A stretch of 10,522 nt of DNA from positions 1 through 10,522 of the forward strand of contig BNVT01000037.1 in assembly GCA_025998295.1 (NCBI GenBank). The letters run 5' to 3'. Below, in pieces: positions 2 through 10,522 of this stretch; the stretch's first letter is position 1, and every line of letters starts with the position of its first letter. The translations under genes were made by a program, and so were the position numbers. The DNA is from Endomicrobiia bacterium (GTDB lineage: Bacteria > Elusimicrobiota > Endomicrobiia > Endomicrobiales > Endomicrobiaceae). The notes beneath the pieces were generated by a model. The model saw only the letters and a program-made list of their open reading frames with translations. It was not told where the DNA came from and ran no database searches.

Positions 2-313
2 CAGCAATATAAGCATGCGACACGCACGAGTGACACAACAGGTGCAGGCGCAGGCATGAATGTAAATAGATTGGCGGTGCTTGGTGGGAGCAGTCCGCAG
101 CCACAGTCACAACCGTCGCAAGGGCAAGATAGTCCGCCGTATGGCAACATTAACGCACAACATATGGCGAACAACGCAGATGTAAGTAGTTTGAGTTCAT
201 TATCTTCTTCATCGATTAGTAGTTCATTAACTAGTAATTCTATGTCTCAATCATCACCGTCGTCAACATTTTCGCCATTTTCACCTTCAACAGTCCAATC
301 TCAAGTAGTTTGA
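2..313 (+). pseudogene. 5' part of the serine-rich protein gene, separated from the rest by an apparent frameshift
   Basis: This frame is open from the window edge (codons from base 2) to a TGA at 311-313, so the gene probably starts to the left of the window. The ATG at 56 is a possible start, but I see no convincing Shine-Dalgarno sequence before it and the codons upstream of it are also open. The peptide begins with a Thr/Gly/Ala hinge (TTGAGAG), then a Gln/Pro/Asn-rich stretch, then a serine-rich tract that continues in another frame after base 291. Comparison with the related internal segment near 931-955 suggests one G is missing between 290 and 291 (TCAA/CAGT here, TCAAGCAGT there). 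Restoring it joins this piece in frame to the 310-3276 reading frame. It could be a real mutation, a phase-variable slip or a sequencing error. I recognise no family. Confidence 0.55.
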
Positions 314-3276
314 GTAGTTTTACATCGAGCAGTTCAACATCGAACTTACTGGTACCACCACTACTACTACCAACACTACATACAACAAATTCATCTTCAA
401 GTAGCTCATCAAGCTCATTATCCTCGTTGTCACCATCATCTCCACCACTTTCATCATCGGCTACTACATTTGTTCCATCGCCATCTTCTTCTTTGTATCT
501 ATCATCGCCTTCTCTTTATCTGTCAATATTTCCTGTTACGTCTTCACCATCGTATTCTTCTTCGTCGTTTTCTAGTTCATCTTTATCGCCAGCATCAGCA
601 TCTCCATCACTTTCATCATCGGCTACTACATTTGTTCCATCGTCATCTTCTTTGCCTCCATCATTGCCTTCCTTCTCGTTTTCTAGTGCACCTTCATCGT
701 TAGTATCAGCGTCTCCATCATCGTCATCTCCTTCATTTTCTCCATTTTCTCCATCGTCACCTTCTTCTTCGTCGTTTTCTAGTTCATCTTCATCATTACC
801 GTCTTCCCAATCACCTTCTTCGTTTCCATCATCATCTTCTTCGTCGTTTTCTAGTTCATCTTTATCGCCAGCATCAGCATCTCCATCATCGTCATCTTAT
901 TCATTTGTTCCATTTTTTCCATCGCCATCTTTACCTTCAAGCAGTCCAAGCTCTAGTAATTTGAGCGGTTCAAGTTTGAGTCCAAGTAATTCGAGCTTAT
1001 CTTCAAGTTCAGTCAGTCCAAGCTCGAGTAGTTCGAGCCCGAAAAGTTCGAGCGTTTCAAGTTCAAGTGGTGGCAAAGATGTAGGTACAAGACATCATAA
1101 GCCATCGCCACTATCATCTTCTTCATCTTTTTTGGATCCATTTTCGTCATCAGATACAAATGGGGAGCATGATGGTTCATATGAGACCGGGACTGATTAT
1201 GCTAAGACTAGGGCAGCTGAGAAGTTAGAGGATATGGATCGGGAGTATCGGGAGGAGATGGAAAAATGGAATCCTGAGGTCGTTGAGGAGAAGTTTGAGG
1301 AGTCACAGCATAATTGTAATACATCGTCATCTTCTTCGTCGCCTTCTTCTTCATCTTCTTCGTCAGCATCAGCATCTCCATCATTGTCTTCTTCATTTTT
1401 TCCATCGTCATCTTCTTCGTCGCCTTCTTCTTCATCTTCTTCTTCGTTTTCGCCATCTTTACCTTCAAGCAGTTCAAGCTCAAGTAATTTGAGCGGTTCA
1501 AACCCGAACAGTTTTACATCGAGTAGTTCAAGCTCAAATGGTGGCACAGGTGCAAGCGTGGTTGGTCTACAACCACCACCACTACTACAACAACCACAAC
1601 TACAACGACGACCATACTTGAGTAGCTCGAGCTCAAGTGGTCGCACAGGTGTAGGTAGTCTATGGCAGTCTGGTCCGCCGCAACAGCCGCCGCGTTACGG
1701 CAATGGCAACCGCAACCAGAATAACGATATCAGACACCTACCATTCGTATCTTATTGGTTGTATTCACCACCGTCTTCTTCTTCAAAGGAGTTACTGAAT
1801 CATTATAATGGCTTCCCGCCACTATTTCTAATGGCGATCCCACAACACTCAACAAGTCAATCTTCATCGAGCTCATCAAATAGCTCGTCAAGCTCATCAT
1901 CCTCGTTGTCATCATCTTCTTCATCTACATCATCGTCATCTTCTTCGTTTTCTAGTTCATCTTTATCATTACCGTCTTCTTCATCACCATCGTCAACACT
2001 TTCGCCATCTTCACCTTTAAGCAGTTCAAGTTCAAGTAGTTTGAACAGTTCAAGCTCATCTTCAAGCCTAAGCTCGAGTAGTTCGAGTTCATCTTCAAGT
2101 TCAGCCAGTCCAAGCTTGAGCAGTTTGAGTTCGAGCAGTTCAAATCCGAGCAGTTCTACATCGAGTAGTTCAAACTCAAGCTCGAGTAGTTCGAGTTCAA
2201 GTGATGGCACAAGTGCAGGAAGCGAAGCTGGTCTGCAACAACGACAGAAATATCAAGAACTACTACTACCACCACCACCACTATTACCACCACCACATAC
2301 AACAAGTTCATCTTCATCGAGCTCATCAAGCAGTTCATCAAGCTCATCATCCTCGTTATCATCGCCATCTAGTGCGTCTTCAAGTAGCTCGCCTTCATCA
2401 TCACCAGCAGCAGCACAACCAGAACGACAAGCGCATATATTCATAGTCGATTTTGGCCATGTTGCCGACATGAGTATCAAATTCGCCGCCGACGCCTTAG
2501 CCGCCACCCACCAAATTATCGACCGCGCCGCCAGCAACGTCTGTACCCTCGCCAGCATCCAAACCATCGCCTCCACCTCTTGCGTCGATGCTAACTCCGC
2601 CTACGCCAACGCCGCCGACGCCTACGCCTTATATAACACCGCCGCCGATGACGACGAAACCGAATACAAATTAAGCAGCATTGTCTGCTACAACATCTGC
2701 GCCACCGCCTGCGACATCATCGCCGCCGCCTGTTGCTGTGCCGAAGCTTTCATCAGTAGAGATACCTCTTTCGTTTCCAAAGAAGAAGAAGGAGGAGCCA
2801 TCAACGTCGCTCTCTACAAAGCCCGCTCCTACGCTGAACACGCCACCGCCTGCAACAACAACACCCGTGCCGTCACCTCCAGACTCGCTCTCGTCCCCAT
2901 AGACTCCTATATCACCATAACCCTCCAGCAGCAGACCAACAAAGATGCCTATACCTGTGAAATATTAAAAAGCGAAGACATCGGTGACGAGACCTATACC
3001 CAGAGGCTCGAGCTCATTCACTCATGCACCTATAACCTAGAAAAAGATGCCTATTTCATCCGTAAAGTGGTCGAAGAAATCAGAGAAATCCCTACTACAA
3101 ACATCATTCGAGCCAACAAAGATAGCTTTACCCGTTGTCTAATCGAAAATCTTGCTACAGAAGTCGATGATATCGTTAAAAAAGCCCAAGGCTTAATCGA
3201 CAAAACCAGAGCATTAGTTGCCAAAACCGCCGTTGCAGGCAGTGTACAAGACTTAAAAGACAAAGAAACCAAATAA
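310..3276 (+). CDS. Giant serine-rich low-complexity protein with an Ala/Cys-rich helical C-terminal domain
   Basis: The frame is open for 988 codons from a TTG at 310. That TTG is unlikely to be the true start, because the frame is already open from about 292 and homologous text continues upstream in another frame. Residues 1 to about 700 are mostly serine, broken by Pro/Leu stretches, short Gly-Thr-Gly hinges, a charged island (nt 1153-1323) and an aromatic island (nt 1726-1860). From about residue 704 (QPERQAHIFIVDFGH) to the end lies a domain of about 285 residues of ordinary complexity. It is Ala-rich and probably helical, with 12 cysteines including a Cys-Cys-Cys at residues 808-810; the serine-rich part has only one cysteine. 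I see no LPXTG motif and no C-terminal membrane helix. The N-terminus is outside the window, so a signal peptide cannot be judged. Codons in 2450-2950 are strikingly C-ending, unlike the AT-rich neighbours. A surface, matrix or adhesin-like role is only a guess from composition. Confidence 0.7.
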   Translation: MSSFTSSSSTSNLLVPPLLLPTLHTTNSSSSSSSSSLSSLSPSSPPLSSSATTFVPSPSSSLYLSSPSLYLSIFPVTSSPSYSSSSFSSSSLSPASASPSLSSSATTFVPSSSSLPPSLPSFSFSSAPSSLVSASPSSSSPSFSPFSPSSPSSSSFSSSSSSLPSSQSPSSFPSSSSSSFSSSSLSPASASPSSSSYSFVPFFPSPSLPSSSPSSSNLSGSSLSPSNSSLSSSSVSPSSSSSSPKSSSVSSSSGGKDVGTRHHKPSPLSSSSSFLDPFSSSDTNGEHDGSYETGTDYAKTRAAEKLEDMDREYREEMEKWNPEVVEEKFEESQHNCNTSSSSSSPSSSSSSSASASPSLSSSFFPSSSSSSPSSSSSSSFSPSLPSSSSSSSNLSGSNPNSFTSSSSSSNGGTGASVVGLQPPPLLQQPQLQRRPYLSSSSSSGRTGVGSLWQSGPPQQPPRYGNGNRNQNNDIRHLPFVSYWLYSPPSSSSKELLNHYNGFPPLFLMAIPQHSTSQSSSSSSNSSSSSSSSLSSSSSSTSSSSSSFSSSSLSLPSSSSPSSTLSPSSPLSSSSSSSLNSSSSSSSLSSSSSSSSSSSASPSLSSLSSSSSNPSSSTSSSSNSSSSSSSSSDGTSAGSEAGLQQRQKYQELLLPPPPLLPPPHTTSSSSSSSSSSSSSSSSSLSSPSSASSSSSPSSSPAAAQPERQAHIFIVDFGHVADMSIKFAADALAATHQIIDRAASNVCTLASIQTIASTSCVDANSAYANAADAYALYNTAADDDETEYKLSSIVCYNICATACDIIAAACCCAEAFISRDTSFVSKEEEGGAINVALYKARSYAEHATACNNNTRAVTSRLALVPIDSYITITLQQQTNKDAYTCEILKSEDIGDETYTQRLELIHSCTYNLEKDAYFIRKVVEEIREIPTTNIIRANKDSFTRCLIENLATEVDDIVKKAQGLIDKTRALVAKTAVAGSVQDLKDKETK
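446..642 (+). repeat. 35-bp exact direct repeat within the serine-rich gene
   Basis: The same 35 bases occur at 446-480 and 608-642. In the main frame both encode a Leu-Ser-Ser-Ser-Ala-Thr-Thr-Phe-Val-Pro-Ser segment. They are among the few exact long repeats in a tract that is otherwise only approximately repetitive, so they point to recent internal duplication. Confidence 0.8.
556..888 (+). repeat. 54-bp exact direct repeat within the serine-rich gene
   Basis: Bases 556-609 and 835-888 are identical over 54 positions and in the same reading frame, encoding a Ser-rich stretch containing SPASASPS. Shorter relatives of the same block, with substitutions, occur near 763 and 1941. Together with the 35-bp repeat this indicates growth of the gene by segmental duplication followed by divergence. 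Confidence 0.8.
1051..2223 (+). repeat. Recurring Gly-Thr-Gly hinge module in the serine-rich protein
   Basis: Four related 33-39 bp segments (1051-1089, 1525-1557, 1621-1659, 2188-2223) encode Ser-Ser-Ser followed by G/D-G/R-(T/K)-(G/S/D)-(A/V)-G/S. Each marks the end of a serine tract and the start of a non-serine segment. A fifth, more diverged relative is at 29-55 in the upstream frame. The regular placement suggests a modular protein of serine linkers and short islands. Confidence 0.6.
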
Positions 3277-3328
3277 GAGACTAAAAAAAACATTAAGCAA
3301 TGGTCTTAAAGTATGTAGCATTCACACT

Positions 3329-3459
3329 CAAACGCACGAGAGCTTTTTTGAGAGCTTTTTTGATTTTTGATTGTTGCAGGCAAGAACTGTAACAACAATC
3401 TATGGAATTTGCTTAAAGGTTAAAGCAACCTCGCCAAAGACTTTTTTCGTGCGTTTGTC
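3329..3459 (+). repeat. Dispersed structured repeat, copy 1
   Basis: The element is bounded by a perfect 11-bp inverted repeat, CAAACGCACGA (3329-3339) and TCGTGCGTTTG (3447-3457). Inside is a second perfect stem, GATTGTTG (3369-3376) with CAACAATC (3393-3400), followed by the conserved core TATGGAATTTGC (3401-3412). A 12-bp unit GAGAGCTTTTTT is tandemly duplicated at 3338-3361. The same ends and core recur at 7546-7663 and, inverted, at 10311-10430. It may be a MITE-like element, a palindromic intergenic repeat, or a structured RNA. Core-to-end lengths differ between copies by amounts that are not multiples of three, which argues against coding. Confidence 0.75.
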
Positions 3460-3503
3460 GTGCTAATCCGGCTATTACTTTGCGAGAAGGTATAAAGCTT
3501 AGA

Positions 3504-3535
3504 ACTGGACAAAAAAGATTGATAAAAGGTCCAGT
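3504..3535. repeat. Small inverted repeat (7-bp stem)
   Basis: ACTGGAC (3504-3510) and GTCCAGT (3529-3535) are perfect complements around an 18-base A-rich loop. There is no T-tract on either side, so it is not a typical intrinsic terminator. It could be a short regulatory stem or protein-binding site, or chance. Confidence 0.35.
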
Positions 3536-3773
3536 GCAATGCTTTGTTTTGGTGAGAGTCTTATAATCTATTGGGTTTGCCTAAAAACTCTAACAAGTTA
3601 CTGTTGCTGTGTTTTTGTTTTGGTACAGATGTTGTTTTTTTTACAGGCAAGATACCTCAAAACAATACCAGTATAACAAATACAAAAACCTACAAAAACA
3701 ATGGGTTTTTAAGGAAGCCCTATTGCAATTTTGTTTGGTATATTTATTTACGCTAGGAAGTTCAGTGTAATTT

Positions 3774-3780
3774 AAGGGAG
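3774..3780 (+). promoter_or_regulatory. Ribosome binding site of the TadZ-like fragment
   Basis: AAGGGAG ends five bases before the ATG at 3786. It is a good Shine-Dalgarno match at the right distance. It supports a genuine translation start here even though the encoded protein lacks the usual N-terminal P-loop of its family. Confidence 0.6.
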
Positions 3781-3785
3781 TATAA

Positions 3786-4028
3786 ATGTTTTTAATAGCC
3801 CCAGGATGTGCTTTACTTTATAGAAATTTGATTGCGCATGGGTTATCTTGTGTAAGCTCAAATAAAAAAGAATTTAGCATTATTCTTGATTTTTCAATTC
3901 CAGGTACAGAAGCTTTTTGGTCTATATATAAAACTGGAACGAAGTATATTGAAGATATACTCCCGGTTTTGTCAAGTATTAATCCTAAAATGTTAAAAAG
4001 TTATTTATCTCCGATGGAAGCAGTATGA
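3786..4028 (+). CDS. tadZ: TadZ/CpaE-like N-terminal fragment without a P-loop (80 aa)
   Basis: TadZ/CpaE proteins are MinD/ParA-type ATPases that localise the Tad pilus machine. The segment FSIILDFSIPGTEAFWSIYK, followed by a Pro-to-Leu helix region ending YLSPMEAV, matches in layout the family's LIDLDL-PG strand and following helices. The start is set by ATG 3786 with AAGGGAG upstream. Where a KGGVGKT Walker A would be expected, the sequence has APGCALLYRNL, so the nucleotide-binding loop appears lost. The protein stops after 80 residues, and what looks like the second half of the same domain starts the next gene in the -1 frame at an ATGA overlap. It is either a split gene with translational coupling or a one-base frameshift in a TadZ-TadA fusion. 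Assignment rests on fold-level resemblance and position before tadA, so it is moderately secure. Confidence 0.55.
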   Translation: MFLIAPGCALLYRNLIAHGLSCVSSNKKEFSIILDFSIPGTEAFWSIYKTGTKYIEDILPVLSSINPKMLKSYLSPMEAV

Positions 4029-5770
4029 TTCTTGGGTTGAAAAATAAAAAACTGAGAGACATAAGCATTGAAAGCATCTTATACCTTATAAATGTTTTGG
4101 AAAGTGAATTTAAATATGTTTTTGTTGTTGCGCCTGACGAAGTCCGCGATGCATTAGGTCTTGTTAAGGAATCAAGGTGCGTTCTTCTTGCCTATATGTC
4201 TGATACGGTGTCTGCCAAAAATGCAATTCTTATTTCGGAAGAGTATAAATCTATAAGTTCTTATATAAATTTTATAACTCTAAAGCTTAATATTGGGTAT
4301 AATTTTTATTCTGATAAATTATTAAATAATTTTGAAGTTTTTAAAGATAATATATATGTAGATTTTGATTGCAATCTACAGGAACATATTCTCTCTCCGG
4401 AATTTTCCTACAGAAATAAATCAAATCCTTATGTCTTAGTTTTGGAAAATATAATTGATGATTATAACTTGAAGAAAAAGACGTCAGGAGTATTCTTGCA
4501 TGATTATTATCAGAATGAAGATGTTTATAAAGAATTAAGAGATGAAATGCAAAAGATGCTTGTGGAGGAAATGAAAGATTATGCCGATGAAACAGATGTT
4601 GAGAAGTTAAAACAAACTGCAAAAAATAAAACAAGTGAAATAATAAAAAAACGCGGACTTATTATGCCTGAAAACATTTTGGACAGACTTTACAAAGAAC
4701 TTTGCGACGATGTTGCTGGGCTTGGCGTTTTAGAAGACTTTTTGAAAGATCCATCAATTACGGAGATAATGATCAACGGATATAAAAACATATTTGTTGA
4801 AAAGAGCGGCAAAATATCGAAAACAAATATAACCTTCCCTGATGGAAAAAGATTAAGAACAGTTATAGACAGAATAGTTTCAAAAGTTGGCAGACATGTT
4901 GATGAATCGTCGCCAATTGTCGATGCAAGACTTCAGGACGGTTCACGCGTTAATGCAGTTATAAGTCCTGTGTCATTAGGTGGAGACATTCTTACAATAA
5001 GAAAATTCTTAAAGAATAAATTAACGCCTGATTCCTTAATTTCTTCAGAAAGTATAAGTAAAGAAATGATTGAGTTTTTAAAAACAGCTGTTATTTTAAA
5101 AAGAAATATCATTGTTTCAGGAGGCACTGGTACAGGGAAAACAACTCTTTTAAATACTATATCGTCATTTATCCCTATAGGGGAAAGATTGATTACTATT
5201 GAAGACTCCGCAGAACTCCAACTTCAGCAGGACCATGTTATAAGACTTGAAAGCAGGCCTAAGTCAACAGAAGGAACAGGAGAGATAAGTATAAGAAGAC
5301 TTGTTGTAAATGCTTTAAGAATGCGTCCGGACAGAATAATTGTAGGCGAATGTCGTTCAGGTGAAGCTCTTGATATGATTCAGGCAATGTCCACCGGACA
5401 TGAAGGAAGCCTTACAACATTACATGCAAATTCTCCCTATGACGCAGCTTCTAGACTTGTAACTATGGTATTAATGTCTGGAATGGATTTGCCAGAACGT
5501 TCTATTATCTCTCAAATTGCATCTGCCATTAATATTATAGTTCAGCTTAGGCGTTACTCGGACGGTTCAAGAAAGATATCTTCAATTTCTGTGATAAATA
5601 AAACAAAAGACGATAGAATATACGAAATCAAACCAGTTTTTCAATTTGATCCAAAATGTTTTGAAAATGGCACTCAAAAAGGAGATTTTGTTTTTACAGG
5701 ATATATACCTGAATTTATTAACACATCTTCTCAAATGGGAGTAAATATAGATATGGGGATTTTTAAATGA
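4025..5770 (+). CDS. tadA: TadA/CpaF secretion ATPase with a TadZ-like N-terminal extension
   Basis: This is the hexameric ATPase that powers Tad/Flp pilus assembly at the inner membrane. Residues about 165-581 cover the length of a normal TadA: a helical bundle (165-240), the N-terminal domain with ITEIMINGYKNIFVEK (245-260), Walker A GGTGTGKT (366-373), Asp box ITIED (390-394), Walker B RIIVGE with Glu442, and His box TTLHAN (464-469). RPDRIIVGECRSGEALDM is the typical CpaF wording with a Cys-Arg-Ser variation. Residues 1 to about 145 are extra. Their strand SEFKYVFVVAP, helix, and RCVLLAYMSDTVSAKNA resemble the second half of a TadZ/CpaE domain. The ATG at 4025 overlaps the previous stop as ATGA, with GGAAG four bases upstream. 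All ATPase motifs are intact, so the enzyme should be functional. It ends in an ATGA overlap with tadB. Confidence 0.93.
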   Translation: MILGLKNKKLRDISIESILYLINVLESEFKYVFVVAPDEVRDALGLVKESRCVLLAYMSDTVSAKNAILISEEYKSISSYINFITLKLNIGYNFYSDKLLNNFEVFKDNIYVDFDCNLQEHILSPEFSYRNKSNPYVLVLENIIDDYNLKKKTSGVFLHDYYQNEDVYKELRDEMQKMLVEEMKDYADETDVEKLKQTAKNKTSEIIKKRGLIMPENILDRLYKELCDDVAGLGVLEDFLKDPSITEIMINGYKNIFVEKSGKISKTNITFPDGKRLRTVIDRIVSKVGRHVDESSPIVDARLQDGSRVNAVISPVSLGGDILTIRKFLKNKLTPDSLISSESISKEMIEFLKTAVILKRNIIVSGGTGTGKTTLLNTISSFIPIGERLITIEDSAELQLQQDHVIRLESRPKSTEGTGEISIRRLVVNALRMRPDRIIVGECRSGEALDMIQAMSTGHEGSLTTLHANSPYDAASRLVTMVLMSGMDLPERSIISQIASAINIIVQLRRYSDGSRKISSISVINKTKDDRIYEIKPVFQFDPKCFENGTQKGDFVFTGYIPEFINTSSQMGVNIDMGIFK

Positions 5771-6576
5771 AAATAATGTTAGTTATTTCCTTATCTGCGT
5801 TTGTATTTTGTTTTGTACGTTTGATTTTTTTACAAATCAAAAAAAAGACAAAGCGTAAAAATAAAAAAAAGTTTAATTTTAAAAACTTGCCTGTTAAGAG
5901 AAAGAAACTCTTAATTTTATTATTGGCATTTCTTTTATTGGCTATTTTACTTAAGAATATTGTCTTTGCGTTAATATTGTGTATTTTATTTCTTTATTTG
6001 GATTGGTATGTAAAAGATAAGAATAAACGCAAACGTACAAATTTAATTGACAAGCAGGTTGTTGAAGCGTTAGCTATTATAAAAAATTCATTGCAAGCTG
6101 GACAATCCCTTCAAAATGCTTTGTTAACGGCTAAAAACGAATTAAACGAGCCTATAAAATTTGAATTTAAACAAATGTCAGACAGTTTGGCTTTAGGGAT
6201 AAGTTTGGATAAAGCTCTTGAAGAATTATCTAGAAAGACAGAAAGTAAAGAATTTAAGCTTATGCTTGATACTACAAGAATATCAAAAGATACCGGAGCA
6301 AGTGTAAAAGATATATTTGATAAAATAATCGATTCGACAAGCCGGAGAATTGATGTACGGTCAAAGATAAACGCCCTGACAGCGCAGGGTAAAATGTCTG
6401 GCAATATTGTAAGCGTTATGCCTTTTATTGTTGTGTTTTTGATGTATATAATTGAGCCTGATATGATAAAACCTTTGTTTGTAACATTACCAGGTAGTGT
6501 TTTGCTGCTTATTGTGGTTGTGATGGTGCTTGCAGGTTCGTTTGTAATAAGAAAAATGACGGAGATTGATTTTTGA
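5767..6576 (+). CDS. tadB: TadB, inner-membrane platform protein of the Tad pilus (GspF/T2SF family)
   Basis: TadB and TadC form the inner-membrane platform on which TadA acts. The 269-residue protein has hydrophobic segments at about 3-23, 47-62, 63-83, 212-230 and 240-262, with a very Lys/Arg-rich cytoplasmic loop at 24-48. The cytoplasmic T2SF domain lies at about 95-205 and contains AIIKNSLQAGQSLQNAL and the DTGASVKDIFDKI region typical of TadB. Segment TAQGKMSGNIVSVMPF leads into the penultimate membrane helix, as usual in the family. Length is slightly short of the common 300 or so because the N-terminal part is compact. The start ATG overlaps the tadA stop by four bases (ATGA), indicating translational coupling. 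Confidence 0.9.
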   Translation: MKIMLVISLSAFVFCFVRLIFLQIKKKTKRKNKKKFNFKNLPVKRKKLLILLLAFLLLAILLKNIVFALILCILFLYLDWYVKDKNKRKRTNLIDKQVVEALAIIKNSLQAGQSLQNALLTAKNELNEPIKFEFKQMSDSLALGISLDKALEELSRKTESKEFKLMLDTTRISKDTGASVKDIFDKIIDSTSRRIDVRSKINALTAQGKMSGNIVSVMPFIVVFLMYIIEPDMIKPLFVTLPGSVLLLIVVVMVLAGSFVIRKMTEIDF

Positions 6577-7451
6577 TGCTTATACTATTTTGTATATTTT
6601 TATCATTATCTATTTTTTTTGTGGGTTATTATATGTTTGTAAGTATTGGGCGAATTGAAATCGCCGGGAAGGTCTATAACGCTATTGAAAAAAGAAAAGG
6701 TAAAAGATTTATATCAAATTTTATAATGGACAATTTCGAAAAAGTAAGCAGGCTTTTCGTTCGTTTAAAATATAAAAAATTTATAAAATATACTGAGAAG
6801 ATAATGGTAATTTTAAAATCTCTAGGAGGTAAATACTCAAAAATTAATCCTTATCAATTTTTTGTTTTACAATTGTTTGTAATGTTTTTAGGTATGTTGA
6901 TATGTATACTTATAAGCAAGAATGTGGTTGTTGTAATTGTATCTAGCGCAGTTTTCTTTTTTCTTCCCTTTTTAAAAATTAAAGAAAAATTTGAAAAAAG
7001 GAAAGAATCTATAGAAAGGCAGCTCCCAGATACGGCGGAGTTGCTTTCTATCATGCTTGACGCTGGTCTTGATTTTTACAGTGCATCTCGCAAAGTTGTA
7101 CAAATAACAGACGGACATTTATCAGATGATTTAAAAGATGCATTGTCAAAAATTTCTTTAGGATGCGATAAACGCTTTGCTTTTACCGAGATGGCGCAAA
7201 AAGCCTCCGTTGATCAACTTAATTTCTTTGTAAAAACTATAAATATGTCGCTTGAGTCGGGTATTGGAATGTCCGATACTTTAAAACGTTTATCTATTTC
7301 ATTAAGAAACAGCAGATTTGCACTAGCAGAGAAAAAAGCGCAGGAAACACCTGTAAGAATGCTTATACCGTTAGTGTTGTTAATATTTCCGACTATTTTT
7401 ATAGTTATATTTGGGCCTATTGCTATTAATTTTATATCCACGGGATTTTAA
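6576..7451 (+). CDS. tadC: TadC, second inner-membrane platform protein of the Tad pilus (GspF/T2SF family)
   Basis: The ATG at 6576 shares its A with the tadB stop (TGATG). I prefer it to the TTG one codon upstream; a GGAG lies 11 bases before. The 291-residue product has an N-terminal membrane helix (1-23), two helices at about 94-132, then the cytoplasmic T2SF domain starting with RQLPDTAELLSIMLDAGLDF (149-167). It ends with the family-typical KAQETPVRMLIPLVLLIFPT and a last helix (about 262-285). These are standard TadC features. It is the last gene of the cluster; 94 bases later comes repeat copy 2, then the convergent glnN. I see no clear intrinsic terminator after it. Confidence 0.9.
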   Translation: MLILFCIFLSLSIFFVGYYMFVSIGRIEIAGKVYNAIEKRKGKRFISNFIMDNFEKVSRLFVRLKYKKFIKYTEKIMVILKSLGGKYSKINPYQFFVLQLFVMFLGMLICILISKNVVVVIVSSAVFFFLPFLKIKEKFEKRKESIERQLPDTAELLSIMLDAGLDFYSASRKVVQITDGHLSDDLKDALSKISLGCDKRFAFTEMAQKASVDQLNFFVKTINMSLESGIGMSDTLKRLSISLRNSRFALAEKKAQETPVRMLIPLVLLIFPTIFIVIFGPIAINFISTGF

Positions 7452-7545
7452 CTAGCGTGTGTTTGCATAAAATTCGAAGTAAAGAAGGGACTTGAGATAA
7501 AGGGATGTTATAATAACTTGCTTGTTTCTTTGGGGAAGCGCGCTT

Positions 7546-7663
7546 GGACAAACGCATAAAGGCTTTTTTAATTGCTGCAGGCAATGTCAAATTTTAGTCT
7601 ATGGAATATGCTTTAAATCTAAAATCAGCCGCCCCAAGAAATTTTTTTTTCATGCGTTTGTCC
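7546..7663 (+). repeat. Dispersed structured repeat, copy 2
   Basis: The ends are a perfect 12-bp inverted repeat, GGACAAACGCAT (7546-7557) and ATGCGTTTGTCC (7652-7663). Inside are ATTGC (7571-7575) with GCAAT (7581-7585), and ATTTTAG (7591-7597) with CTAAAAT (7619-7625). The core TATGGAATATGC is at 7600-7611. A 10-bp palindrome AAGCGCGCTT (7536-7545) directly abuts the left end. The copy lies between the convergent tadC and glnN and has the same orientation as copy 1. The open frame that crosses it (7522-7728) has no start signal and I do not regard it as a gene. Confidence 0.8.
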
Positions 7664-7714
7664 TTTACCTAAACCCACAACAACTTTCCATATGTCGTAG
7701 CAGTACTGTAGTTA

Positions 7715-9814
7715 TTAGAACGCATTAAGAAGTCGTTGATAGCTTATCATTGACCAAAATTCATCTGCAACTAAATCCTCAGCAGCATCGACTTTTTCTC
7801 TCAAACTTGCCAAAATCTCTACACCTTTAGATGCAAATTTCTCAGCTACTGTATTAACATCGCCGTAATCCTCCTCGAGAAATTTTTCTAAAGCAGAACT
7901 ATACTCTCTTATATCCTCATAAAGTTTAACTAAAGTATCAATATCTTTTGCAAATACTTCTGATTCTATGTTGAGTTTGCTCAAGTTTTTACCTGTTTTT
8001 GCCAATATGTTTATCTGTTTAAGAACTGCCGGCAAAACCAGAGTATATACAACTTTTACAGCATATTTGTACTCAATTTCCTTTATTTTTACATAATTTT
8101 CAAGTTTTATTTCAATTTTTGACCTTAACTCCCTCTCGGTTAACACGTGATAATCTGAAAAAGCCTTTATTACGTCTTTATCAAGGAAAAGTTTTAACGC
8201 TTCTGGAGTATTCTTTGCATTAGGCAAACCTCTTTTTTCTGCTTCCACATGCCAATCCTGCGAATATCCATTCTTTTCAAATCTTATATCTTTTGTTTCT
8301 GCAATTATTTCTTTTACTACTTCCAAAGCTTTTTTCTTTACATCGCTGTCATCTTTCTTTGCTTCAATTCTCTTATATATTTCATCAAATCCGTAAGCAG
8401 CGATAAGATTCAACGTGGTTCCGACCTCAGAAGGATTTGCCGAAGACCCAAGTGCTCTAAATTCAAACTTATTACCTGTAAAAGCAACCGGTGAAGTTCT
8501 GTTTCTATCGGAATAATCTTTGTTGACTTTAGGCAGATTTTGAACACCTAACGTTATTTCATTTACTTCTTTTTCATTAATTGTGCTTGCCTTTTCTATT
8601 GAGTCCAATAAATCGTTTACATATTCTCCTAAATAAACAGACATAATTGCAGGAGGAGCTTCATTTGCGCCAAGCCTGTGATCATTACCGGCGTCTGCAA
8701 CACTGGCTCTTAAAATCCCACTGAATTTTTTTACACCAAACAAAACTGCGCTTATAGTCAAAAGGAATGATATATTTTTAAGAGGAGATTTTGAAGGTTC
8801 GAAATAATTTGTTCCGGTATTGTCGCTAATAGACCAATTGAAATGTTTTCCTGAGCCGTTTACGCCTGCAAATGGCTTTTCGTGAAGAATAGCAACCATA
8901 TTGTGATTATCTGCAACTCTCTTCAAGATTTCCATTGTCTGCAAGTTGTTATCTATTGCCAAATTTGCCTCCTGATGAAGAGGCGCAAGCTCAAACTGAT
9001 TAGGAGCAACTTCATTGTGTCTTGTTTTTACAGGAATGCCCTTGCGGTAAAGTTCGTGATCAACATCTTCCATAAATTCCAAAATATTTTTTCTAATATT
9101 TCCAAAATAATGATCTTCCATCTGTTGACCTTTTGCAGGCTTATTTCCAAACAAAGTTCTTCCAGTAACTGTTATGTCGGGTCTTGATTTTACCAATTCT
9201 TTCGGAAGAAGGAAGTATTCCTGCTCAATACCAGCAAAAACTTTTATTTGTCTTGCATTTTTATTACCCAAAAGTTTCTGAAGACTTATTACTTTTTCAT
9301 TCAGAGCTGTAAGAGATCTAAGCAAAGGGGTTTTTAAATCTAGTACCTCGCCTGTCCACGAAAGAAAAACTGAAGGTATTACCAAAGTTTTTGTTTTACC
9401 CGCTTCAAGAAGAAACACAGGAGACGTAGGATCCCATGCAGTGTATCCTCTTGCTTCAAAAGTCGATCTTATTCCACCCGATGGGAAAGAAGACGCGTCA
9501 GGTTCAGATTGCACAAGCTGTGAAGCTGAAAATCTTTCTATTATTTCATTGCCTTCTCCGTAATCTATAAAGGAATCATGTTTTTGTGCAGTACCGCCTC
9601 TTTGAGGCTGAAACCAATGCGTAAAGTGCGTTGCTCCGTTTTTAAGAGCCCATTCTTTCATTGCGTGAGCGACTTCGCTTGCTATCGTCTGGTCCAGAGG
9701 TTCCAAATTGTCAATAGCTGCCACTAATTTCTTGTAAATGTTTTTGCTCAATTTCTGTTCCATCACCTTCTTTGTAAATACTAATTCACCATAATAATCA
9801 TGGATTGATTGCAT
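7715..9814 (-). CDS. glnN: Glutamine synthetase type III (GlnN)
   Basis: The enzyme joins ammonium to glutamate using ATP to make glutamine in the cytoplasm. Type III enzymes are about 700-730 residues, much longer than type I or II, and this one is 699. I start at the ATG at 9814 because AAAGGAGAGG lies just upstream; a longer reading to 9859 adds 15 codons that lack such a signal. Diagnostic motifs, numbered from this start: GIRSTFEARGYTAWDP (114-129), GIEQEYFLL (195-203), RHNEVAPNQFELAP (265-278), NGSGKHFNWS (319-328), NDHRLGANEAPP (377-388), DRNRTSP (436-442) and GNKFEFRALGSS (447-458). The reading frame is intact with all family motifs, so it should be active. I did not identify the type I adenylylation-site sequence. 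It stands alone, convergent with the Tad cluster, and is flanked by inverted copies of the dispersed repeat. Confidence 0.97.
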   Translation of the reverse strand: MQSIHDYYGELVFTKKVMEQKLSKNIYKKLVAAIDNLEPLDQTIASEVAHAMKEWALKNGATHFTHWFQPQRGGTAQKHDSFIDYGEGNEIIERFSASQLVQSEPDASSFPSGGIRSTFEARGYTAWDPTSPVFLLEAGKTKTLVIPSVFLSWTGEVLDLKTPLLRSLTALNEKVISLQKLLGNKNARQIKVFAGIEQEYFLLPKELVKSRPDITVTGRTLFGNKPAKGQQMEDHYFGNIRKNILEFMEDVDHELYRKGIPVKTRHNEVAPNQFELAPLHQEANLAIDNNLQTMEILKRVADNHNMVAILHEKPFAGVNGSGKHFNWSISDNTGTNYFEPSKSPLKNISFLLTISAVLFGVKKFSGILRASVADAGNDHRLGANEAPPAIMSVYLGEYVNDLLDSIEKASTINEKEVNEITLGVQNLPKVNKDYSDRNRTSPVAFTGNKFEFRALGSSANPSEVGTTLNLIAAYGFDEIYKRIEAKKDDSDVKKKALEVVKEIIAETKDIRFEKNGYSQDWHVEAEKRGLPNAKNTPEALKLFLDKDVIKAFSDYHVLTERELRSKIEIKLENYVKIKEIEYKYAVKVVYTLVLPAVLKQINILAKTGKNLSKLNIESEVFAKDIDTLVKLYEDIREYSSALEKFLEEDYGDVNTVAEKFASKGVEILASLREKVDAAEDLVADEFWSMISYQRLLNAF

Positions 9815-9819
9815 ACTTT

Positions 9820-9829
9820 CCTCTCCTTT
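9820..9829 (-). promoter_or_regulatory. Ribosome binding site of glnN
   Basis: Read on the minus strand this is AAAGGAGAGG, ending five bases before the ATG at 9814. It is a near-consensus Shine-Dalgarno and decides the start in favour of the 699-residue product. Confidence 0.8.
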
Positions 9830-9890
9830 ATTTACGCAATTTGCGGGTATTAAACTCAAAAAAACATTTACACCCTATCACATCACGCTG

Positions 9891-9919
9891 ATTCAATCAT
9901 TTTTATTATAAGATGTCAA
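9891..9919 (-). promoter_or_regulatory. Candidate housekeeping promoter of glnN
   Basis: On the minus strand a perfect TTGACA (9919-9914) is followed 17 bases later by TTGAAT (9896-9891), a four-of-six -10 match. A perfect TATAAT (9910-9905) overlaps the same region but has no good -35 box at its own spacing. Either would give a leader of roughly 75-90 bases. No GG/GC sigma-54 pair at the right spacing was found. Confidence 0.35.
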
Positions 9920-10310
9920 ATTAAGTAAAAATATGCAAAAATAGCTGATGTATGTTCTGGTTTTATCATTTTCTTATGTTCTTTTAATCAAAAATAATAA
10001 AAAGCCCTAAATATTTTTGGATTCATTCTGCTTATGTTCATTAAACTTCTTGCAAAACTACATACAAATTTCATAACTACAAATACCAGCTATCAAATTA
10101 AATCTAAAAAGGTTTAAAGCCCTTTTTTCTGTTTCTGTACCCTTGCAAATATTATTTCAAACACCTACCATCTACAAAACACTTGCACTCGTTTGTTTTC
10201 ATAGCTATTTTGCTCTACTTATCCACTAGCAGCTTGGAAAAAGGTCAATAAATACCCAACAAGACTCTATCTGCCCACAACCCCTTTTGTAAAAAAATGG
10301 AAACACTTCA

Positions 10311-10430
10311 ACAACAAACGCATGAAAAAAATTTCTCGAGGTGAATGATTTTAAATCTAAACAAATTCCATAAATTGCAATTTGGTATTGCCGCGACAAT
10401 GAACCTCCGCTCAAAGCAAGACGTGCGGTA
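10311..10430 (-). repeat. Dispersed structured repeat, copy 3 (inverted, degenerate outer end)
   Basis: Read on the minus strand this copy has the core TATGGAATTTGT, an ATTG/CAAT hairpin (10387-10400), the shared TTTAAATCTAAA-like text seen in copy 2, and the CATGCGTTTGTTG right end. The opposite end reads ACCGCACG, recognisably like the AAACGCACG of copy 1 but no longer a perfect partner, so the outer stem is weakened. The long minus-strand frame across it (10226-10498) lacks a convincing start. Peptide similarity to the frame across copy 2 follows from the DNA repeat. Confidence 0.65.
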
Positions 10431-10522
10431 TCAGCAGCAGAAATTGAAGAGCTGTAGTTGTTGCTGTGGATCTTTGACCCCCCCCTGTTTAGTAACATAG
10501 GCCTTGAGAATACCTTCTGTTT

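Follow-up and report, generated by a model that had tools for sequence, protein, structure and literature searches.

Three intergenic repeats in an Endomicrobium-group genome as very probable members of a decayed MITE family of ISAs1 type

The three short repeats in a 10,522-nucleotide stretch of Endomicrobiia DNA (contig BNVT01000037.1 of assembly GCA_025998295.1; the whole stretch is referred to as the window) very probably belong to a family of type II MITEs in an Endomicrobium-group genome; the family is specific to its lineage, for the most part decayed, of ISAs1 type and probably moved in trans by an ISAs1-family transposase. A transposase of this family, resident or brought in, would have recognised the MITE ends in trans, as suggested by shared ends and duplication length, and insertion would have involved a cut staggered by about 9-11 bases. 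A sequence-only reading of the window had proposed a non-autonomous mobile element as one option, and this was borne out by the inverted ends, the target duplications, the lineage-restricted expansion and the existence of ISAs1-family elements of full size that share these ends.

The core TATGGAATWTGY, which had been reported as common to the three copies, did occur exactly three times in the window (3401 and 7600 on the plus strand, 10361 on the minus strand; mean expected by chance 0.01), and three occurrences were reached in none of 200 shuffles of the window. Because copies 1 and 2 belonged to the training set of model R1, which has nine poorly supported pairs, their R1 scores are circular, and a profile without these two copies was therefore run. 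It was derived from alignment A2 (23 rows, i.e. 22 of 30 BLAST loci with both ends and a plausible length, plus copy 1) by removing copies 1 and 2, so that its training set comprised 21 copies located elsewhere in the genome. All three window copies were found with this profile, at 7546-7663 on the plus strand (E 7.7e-25), at 3328-3461 on the plus strand (E 5.1e-22) and at 10403-10312 on the minus strand (E 1.8e-19). When the window was shuffled 50 times in two-base blocks, the top match had an E-value of 2.3, which confirms that the repeat is real.

Copy 1 (3324-3462, plus strand) is a complete but diverged MITE between the serine-rich ORF and the tad genes, with its left inverted end at 3328-3345 (plus) and its right inverted end at 3442-3462 (minus). 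Copy 2 (7544-7665, plus strand) is a complete MITE between tadC and glnN, with inverted ends at 7548-7559 (plus) and 7644-7665 (minus), and has an ortholog in the genome G010 at C47:2972-3090. The limits of both elements are those given by the model, in whose training set copy 1 was included, and neither copy showed a readable target duplication (flank scores 3 and 2, respectively). Copy 3 lies on the minus strand upstream of glnN, its ortholog in G010 being located at C47:202-324, and it has only the right inverted end (10311-10331, plus; end match 10314-10325). In place of its left side stands a different dispersed repeat (10393-10470, unstranded), which is not part of the MITE and recurs in other fetched loci; copy 3 is therefore truncated to about 10310-10394. 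By eye, a junction of the same kind was also seen in G010. Inverted ends, previously described for all three copies, were accordingly present on both sides of copies 1 and 2 and on the right side only of copy 3. Likewise, the TTTAAATCTAAA stretch attributed to copies 2 and 3 has a real counterpart in homologous stretches, TTTAAATCTAAAATCA and TTTAGATTTAAAATCA in element orientation, but TTTAAATCTAAA itself had been read on the plus strand in both copies although copy 3 is inverted.

A lack of further copies in the genome, which would have refuted the sequence-only reading, was not observed: the family occupies 52 places (E<=1.5e-6) of the 1.35-Mb genome (G000), spread over many contigs and both strands. 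The element is about 125 bp in size (127 model positions; readings mostly about 105-140 bp), has the inverted ends CACGACAAACGCATGAAA and, according to the ORF list, contains no transposase gene of its own and no long frame. Several contigs of the assembly, e.g. C34, C3 and C108, end in or beside copies. Of the copies flanked by 300 or more bases on both sides (41 in all), none lay wholly inside a stop-to-stop frame of at least 150 codons, compared with 26% of 820 random 120-base stretches from the same loci. Intergenic placement is thus ordinary for the family, and the copies are not gene-block markers. The repeat that had been placed at each boundary between gene blocks is indeed intergenic, which reflects where the family is generally found.

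Target duplications of about 9-11 bp, now decayed, were detected at the level of the family by comparison with re-paired flanks. The mean flank score was 5.04 in G000 (36 copies), against 3.86 +/- 0.17 in 200 re-pairings (maximum 4.28), and 4.58 in G010 (33 copies), against 3.86 +/- 0.16 in re-pairings (maximum 4.30). A duplication of score >=7 was kept by just 6 of the 36 copies in G000 and 4 of the 33 in G010. Empty sites were sought in G010 for two loci with good duplications and for the region of copy 1, and none was found at these three: at the first locus the right flank alone matched, at a contig end; the second yielded a 127-base piece of the left flank at a contig start together with an unrelated piece of the right flank; and in the copy 1 region the G010 sequence diverges from that of the window at 3757. 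In congeners that are less closely related (77-85% protein identity), inspection of the surroundings of glnN by eye showed no recognisable synteny at the copy sites, so that these neighbourhoods could not be used as empty sites.

These duplications also bear on two other kinds of inverted repeat. Integron attC sites, and comparable recombination sites that bound cassettes, have a similar size range and inverted ends; the copies, however, are distributed over many contigs and both strands with no single-orientation array, and they have target duplications, which cassette integration does not make, leaving this explanation a practically negligible probability. Palindromic extragenic repeats of the REP/BIME type resemble the MITE in being dispersed and intergenic and in having inverted ends. 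REPs are shorter and RAYT-linked, involve a different enzyme class and are not known to have a target duplication of the MITE's kind. Spread of the family as a REP-type repeat by a RAYT (Y1) transposase is very unlikely, given the 9-11-base target duplications and ends that match elements encoding a DDE transposase of the ISAs1 family.

The link to ISAs1 came from full-size elements. Two of these, L117 and L272, have the same ends CACGACAAACGCATGAAA as the MITE, 9-10-bp duplications and ISAs1-family transposases in broken form (family references NCBIfam NF033564 and PF13808 + PF01609), and in a Lactobacillales genome the locus L252 has an intact ISAs1 transposase between a close pair of these ends, which are slightly different there. 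Wherever a full-size element was found between two such ends lying close together (three cases), it thus encoded an ISAs1-family transposase, and in L117 and L272, for which both flanks were seen, the duplication length equals that of the MITE family. Unlike such insertion sequences, the window copies are one tenth the size and without a transposase. Both L117 and L272, with their broken transposases, lie on virus-like contigs; the L117 element matched none of 50,697 phage records, and its only matches to plasmid records, six in number, were at 12-14% of its length.

Of the 17 end-bearing genomes that were searched, 7 gave an ISAs1 match. In G000, at C115:2408, a TIR is followed by an ISAs1 N-terminus that is 57% identical to that of L117 over 68 residues. 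This fragment is the sole ISAs1 match in G000 (43.6 bits, below the family cut-off of 70), and none was found in G010. An end with a short stretch resembling an ISAs1 N-terminus on C44 of the genome G004 was not counted, as it gave no tblastn match. A close pair of the ends was present at only one of 15 fetched ISAs1 loci, L252; most fetched loci were without the MITE's end, and most ISAs1 elements therefore have other ends. Mobilisation by a transposase of another family, sharing just the end with ISAs1, would accord with the failure to find an intact transposase in G000 or G010 and with the fact that TIR-only MITEs keep no record of the enzyme that moved them. It is nevertheless very unlikely in view of the ISAs1-family transposases of all three full-size elements and the matching duplication length in L117 and L272.

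The expanded family was restricted to G000 and G010 among 40 genomes. The 17-base end (<=1 mismatch) was present in 5 of the 40, all of one genus, the reversed-pattern control giving 0 in all 40, and in the searches made the MITE core matched Endomicrobia only (G000, G010 and MS502 records). For the 34 copies shared by G000 and G010, identity was 0.903 inside the element and 0.902 in the flanks (paired p 0.46), showing that shared copies drift neutrally and as fast as the DNA on either side; of the clear insertions, about two thirds predate the G000/G010 split. A family of structured RNAs had been a further option of the earlier reading; these could be small RNAs or cis-regulatory elements maintained by selection where genes adjoin, and the copies are short and intergenic, with potentially pairing inverted ends and a conserved-looking core. 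This option is unsupported, because divergence within the shared copies is no different from that of the flanks and there is no covariation between the two ends (pairing in 82.0% of cells vs 82.2% in shuffles). The consensus fold was weak (-1.1 kcal/mol, 9 pairs), no Rfam match came near its gathering score, and the narrow expansion and the target duplications likewise argue against it, so that an RNA family is highly improbable.

The preferred assignment to MITEs agrees with the size of less than 500 bp, the terminal inverted repeats (one end in copy 3), the family-level target duplications, the absence of an own transposase and the related autonomous-type elements L117 and L272 (in the own genome a fragment only). 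According to a review (PMC10969869), prokaryotic type II MITEs are shorter than 500 bp, have terminal inverted repeats and numerous intergenic copies, are flanked by direct repeats that fade as the copies grow older and resemble an IS at the ends only. The Endomicrobium-group family is like them in all these respects, with no difference in kind. In the openly licensed literature, no account of MITEs in Endomicrobia was found.

Short elements whose cores are unrelated bear an identical 21-base end in gut and oral bacteria of several phyla. Duplications of score >=7 were present in 23 of 32 distinct elements with this end (37 of 48 readings), against 0 of 2224 cross pairs. Their cores formed 13 groups when clustered on both strands; this result was used, since one-strand clustering (15 groups) over-split them. 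It is a tentative and rather doubtful possibility that the ISAs1 subgroup characterised by the end CACGACAAACGCATGAAA provides a mobilisation code common to members of gut and oral communities, where short cargo-free elements of several phyla share only this end. One incoming ISAs1 transposase, e.g. on virus-like contigs such as those of L117 and L272, could then set many unrelated MITE families in motion and make new cores out of other dispersed repeats. Because this end is identical in several phyla, it can be tested whether elements are trans-mobilised between gut bacteria.

Since neither G000 nor G010 yielded an intact transposase, the copies are now probably immobile remnants surviving between genes. 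That so conspicuous an intergenic repeat is transposon debris is a warning against reading such repeats as regulatory RNA or operon markers.

The core TATGGAATWTGY occurred three times in the window, against 0.01 occurrences expected by chance, and the three repeats lie at 3324..3462 (plus strand, copy 1), 7544..7665 (plus strand, copy 2) and 10310..10394 (minus strand, copy 3). A profile trained on 21 copies from other parts of the genome, and hence free of circularity, recovered all three places (E 7.7e-25, 5.1e-22 and 1.8e-19), while the top match among 50 two-base-block shuffles of the window had an E value of 2.3. The three places therefore share one repeat, as a sequence-only reading had proposed; of the inverted ends which it ascribed to each of them, both were present in copies 1 and 2, but copy 3 had a single end. 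Beyond ~10393, copy 3 is replaced by a different dispersed repeat, also present in other fetched loci of the window's own genome (G000) and of a close relative (G010). This second repeat (10393-10470; ACAACTACAGCTCTTCAA...TGATACCGC on the minus strand) was seen in many of these loci and cuts off copy 3. Similar sequence was joined at the same point in the G010 ortholog of copy 3, as judged by eye, indicating that the truncation is old. No readable target duplication was found at the flanks of copies 1 and 2.

With copy 2 as query, BLAST against its own genome returned 52 rows at E≤10, and 40 of these had E<0.002. A covariance model built from 23 copies gave 66 rows at E≤0.01, three of which were the same places on the opposite strand, and 52 places, further copies beyond the window among them, had E≤1.5e-6. 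Family members were spread over many contigs, in both orientations. The consensus, of about 127 bases, carries CACGACAAACGCATGAAAG at the left and, at the right, TTTTTTCATGCGTTTGTC together with an outer part of greater variability. Mean identity to this consensus was 0.825 across 49 copies (0.70-0.92), the commonest changes being C>T and G>A. Among 40 genomes, many covariance-model rows were obtained only in G000 (64) and G010 (53); the 22 remaining congeners had one weak row in three genomes and none in 19, and no family rows were found in the 16 genomes outside the genus. A 2-kb stretch of G010 contig C41 is contained in BNVZ01000041.1, a record of Endomicrobiia bacterium MS502-22, which places the window in the Endomicrobium group.

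None of the 41 copies with enough flank lay inside a frame of at least 150 codons, compared with 26% of 820 random stretches from the same loci, which agrees with the earlier placement of the repeats outside genes. A site such as that between tadC and glnN is where an insertion that survived would be expected. The glnN gene is flanked by copies 2 and 3 in G010 as well; copy 1 and the serine-rich ORF do not adjoin the tad genes there, the G010 sequence parting from that of the window at position 3757. In G010 (L121) about 400 extra bases, including the repeat of window 10393-10470, stand between the tad genes and copy 2. The serine-rich, low-complexity frame (310-3276, 988 codons) had no Pfam or NCBIfam matches, and a third dispersed repeat at 3581-3712 matched many places in G010.

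A family of structured RNAs had also been considered, and was not supported. An Rfam search of the window gave two rows, both far below gathering scores, and the RNAalifold consensus fold was weak (9 pairs, -1.1 kcal/mol). End-to-end pairing was seen in 82.0% of cells, and in 82.2% with partners redistributed among copies; since redistributed partners pair equally well, the ends do not co-vary. Divergence was the same as in the flanks: in 34 flank-sharing G000/G010 copy pairs, mean identity was 0.903 inside versus 0.902 in 62 flanks above 0.7, and the medians were 0.907 and, all flanks counted, 0.912 (paired Wilcoxon p 0.46). The pairs were hand-picked from flank matches between 52 G000 and 43 G010 copies, and the fraction 34/52 is thus approximate.

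Flank scoring was possible for 69 of 95 elements and showed that the paired flanks just outside the ends of one copy resemble each other more than flanks from different copies. The mean score was 5.04 in G000 (36 copies) versus 3.86 ± 0.17 in 200 re-pairings (maximum 4.28), and 4.58 in G010 (33 copies) versus 3.86 ± 0.16 (maximum 4.30). Scores of at least 7 were reached by six of 36 copies in G000 and four of 33 in G010, against 1.7% and 0.7% of cross pairs, respectively. Clear duplications included ATTTGCTCCA (contig C42), GTAAAAGAAA (C12) and AACCAACAC (C3). These sequence comparisons bear out the suggestion of a non-autonomous mobile element and indicate that the repeat family is mobile DNA. 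A 17-base direct repeat, seen by eye somewhat outward of the ends of the copy at C3:22640, is not accounted for by a cut of 9-11 bases. Of 92 right flanks, 13 (e.g. L010, L019, L025 and L026) resembled ATGAGATTCTACAAA with up to four mismatches, against three of 92 on the left side and 12 of 1499 stretches of background; since some of the copies are orthologs shared by G000 and G010, these counts are not all independent. The sequence may be a preferred target or else an extension of the element.

The inverted terminal sequence of the repeat, 21 bases at the right, matches the ends of some ISAs1-family elements. At three loci, full-size elements bounded by two such ends in a close pair encoded ISAs1-family transposases. 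The gene is broken in L117, which spans 1246 bases and has identical ends and the duplication CCCTTTACCC, and in L272 (1239 bases, duplication CGGTTTTGA). L252, of 1313 bases and with the ends CACGCCAAACGCATG and CATGCGTTTGGCGTG, has an intact ORF, and its right flank lies at a contig end. In G000 an end at C115:2408 leads into an ISAs1 N-terminus, with 57% identity to that of L117 over 68 residues, and then a break; this ISAs1 match scored 43.6 bits, below the curated family cut-off of 70. The frame after the break (L119) may resemble an IS1-type InsA protein and is perhaps a nested insertion. The ISAs1 family search of the 40 genomes found none in G010 and, besides G000, only a decayed match in the congener G009. 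An ISAs1 match was obtained in seven of 17 end-carrying genomes searched, and a close pair of these ends at one of 15 fetched ISAs1 loci (L252), some loci being cut by contig ends. Because most of these loci had no close end pair, the end marks one ISAs1 subgroup and not the whole family.

An exact scan of the genome collection with the 21-base right end gave 45 stretches, the chance expectation being about 0.1 in 257 billion bases at uniform composition. The hosts were Endomicrobia, Spirochaetia, Ruminococcus and other Clostridia, Lactobacillales, Streptococcaceae, Streptococcus suis and Leptotrichia, which by standard taxonomy represent four phyla. In Leptotrichia the left end was absent within 4 kb of the right end, so that only a right end, and no element, was seen there. 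Right-end readings from the exact-scan set, viral hits and six congeneric loci numbered 84, of which 48, representing 32 distinct elements, were usable (left end within 1400 bases with at most three mismatches, and both flanks). Duplications scoring at least 7 were found in 23 of the 32 elements (37 of 48 readings) versus none of 2224 cross pairs. The nine elements without such a duplication were L087, L094, L106, L109 (a member of the window's own repeat family), L111, L113, L116, L206 and L222. The cores of 30 distinct elements, full-size L117 and L272 being left out, and of two G000 copies, 32 in all, fell into 13 groups that did not match one another at E 1e-3 over 25 bases, and no group spanned different phyla. 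In other Endomicrobia (L075, L081, L085, L104, L105 and similar loci), some cores resembled other dispersed repeats, CCTGAACTTGTTTCAGGATCT, TACCGACGAAAGTCGGTA and CTCCCTCTCCCTCATCAGGGAGAGGG, by eye. Small elements with the same end, each congener having its own, were also observed, of about 125 bases in G004 (L218 and L222, one with duplication ACACTATAAG) and of 61-70 bases in G009 (L206 and L225).

Elusimicrobia are listed in PMC9208149 among phyla with <30% IS-containing genomes. Passages on Endomicrobia in PMC11257099 and PMC8809381 mention IS prediction and not MITEs; in passages from PMC5756416 and PMC3281130, MITEs and ISAs1 each come up, but separately. Taking a type II MITE, in the sense of PMC10969869, as an element of under 500 bp with terminal inverted repeats and with similarity to an insertion sequence only at its ends, the repeat family is, as judged from sequence, a type II MITE family belonging to one ISAs1 subgroup and mostly fossil.
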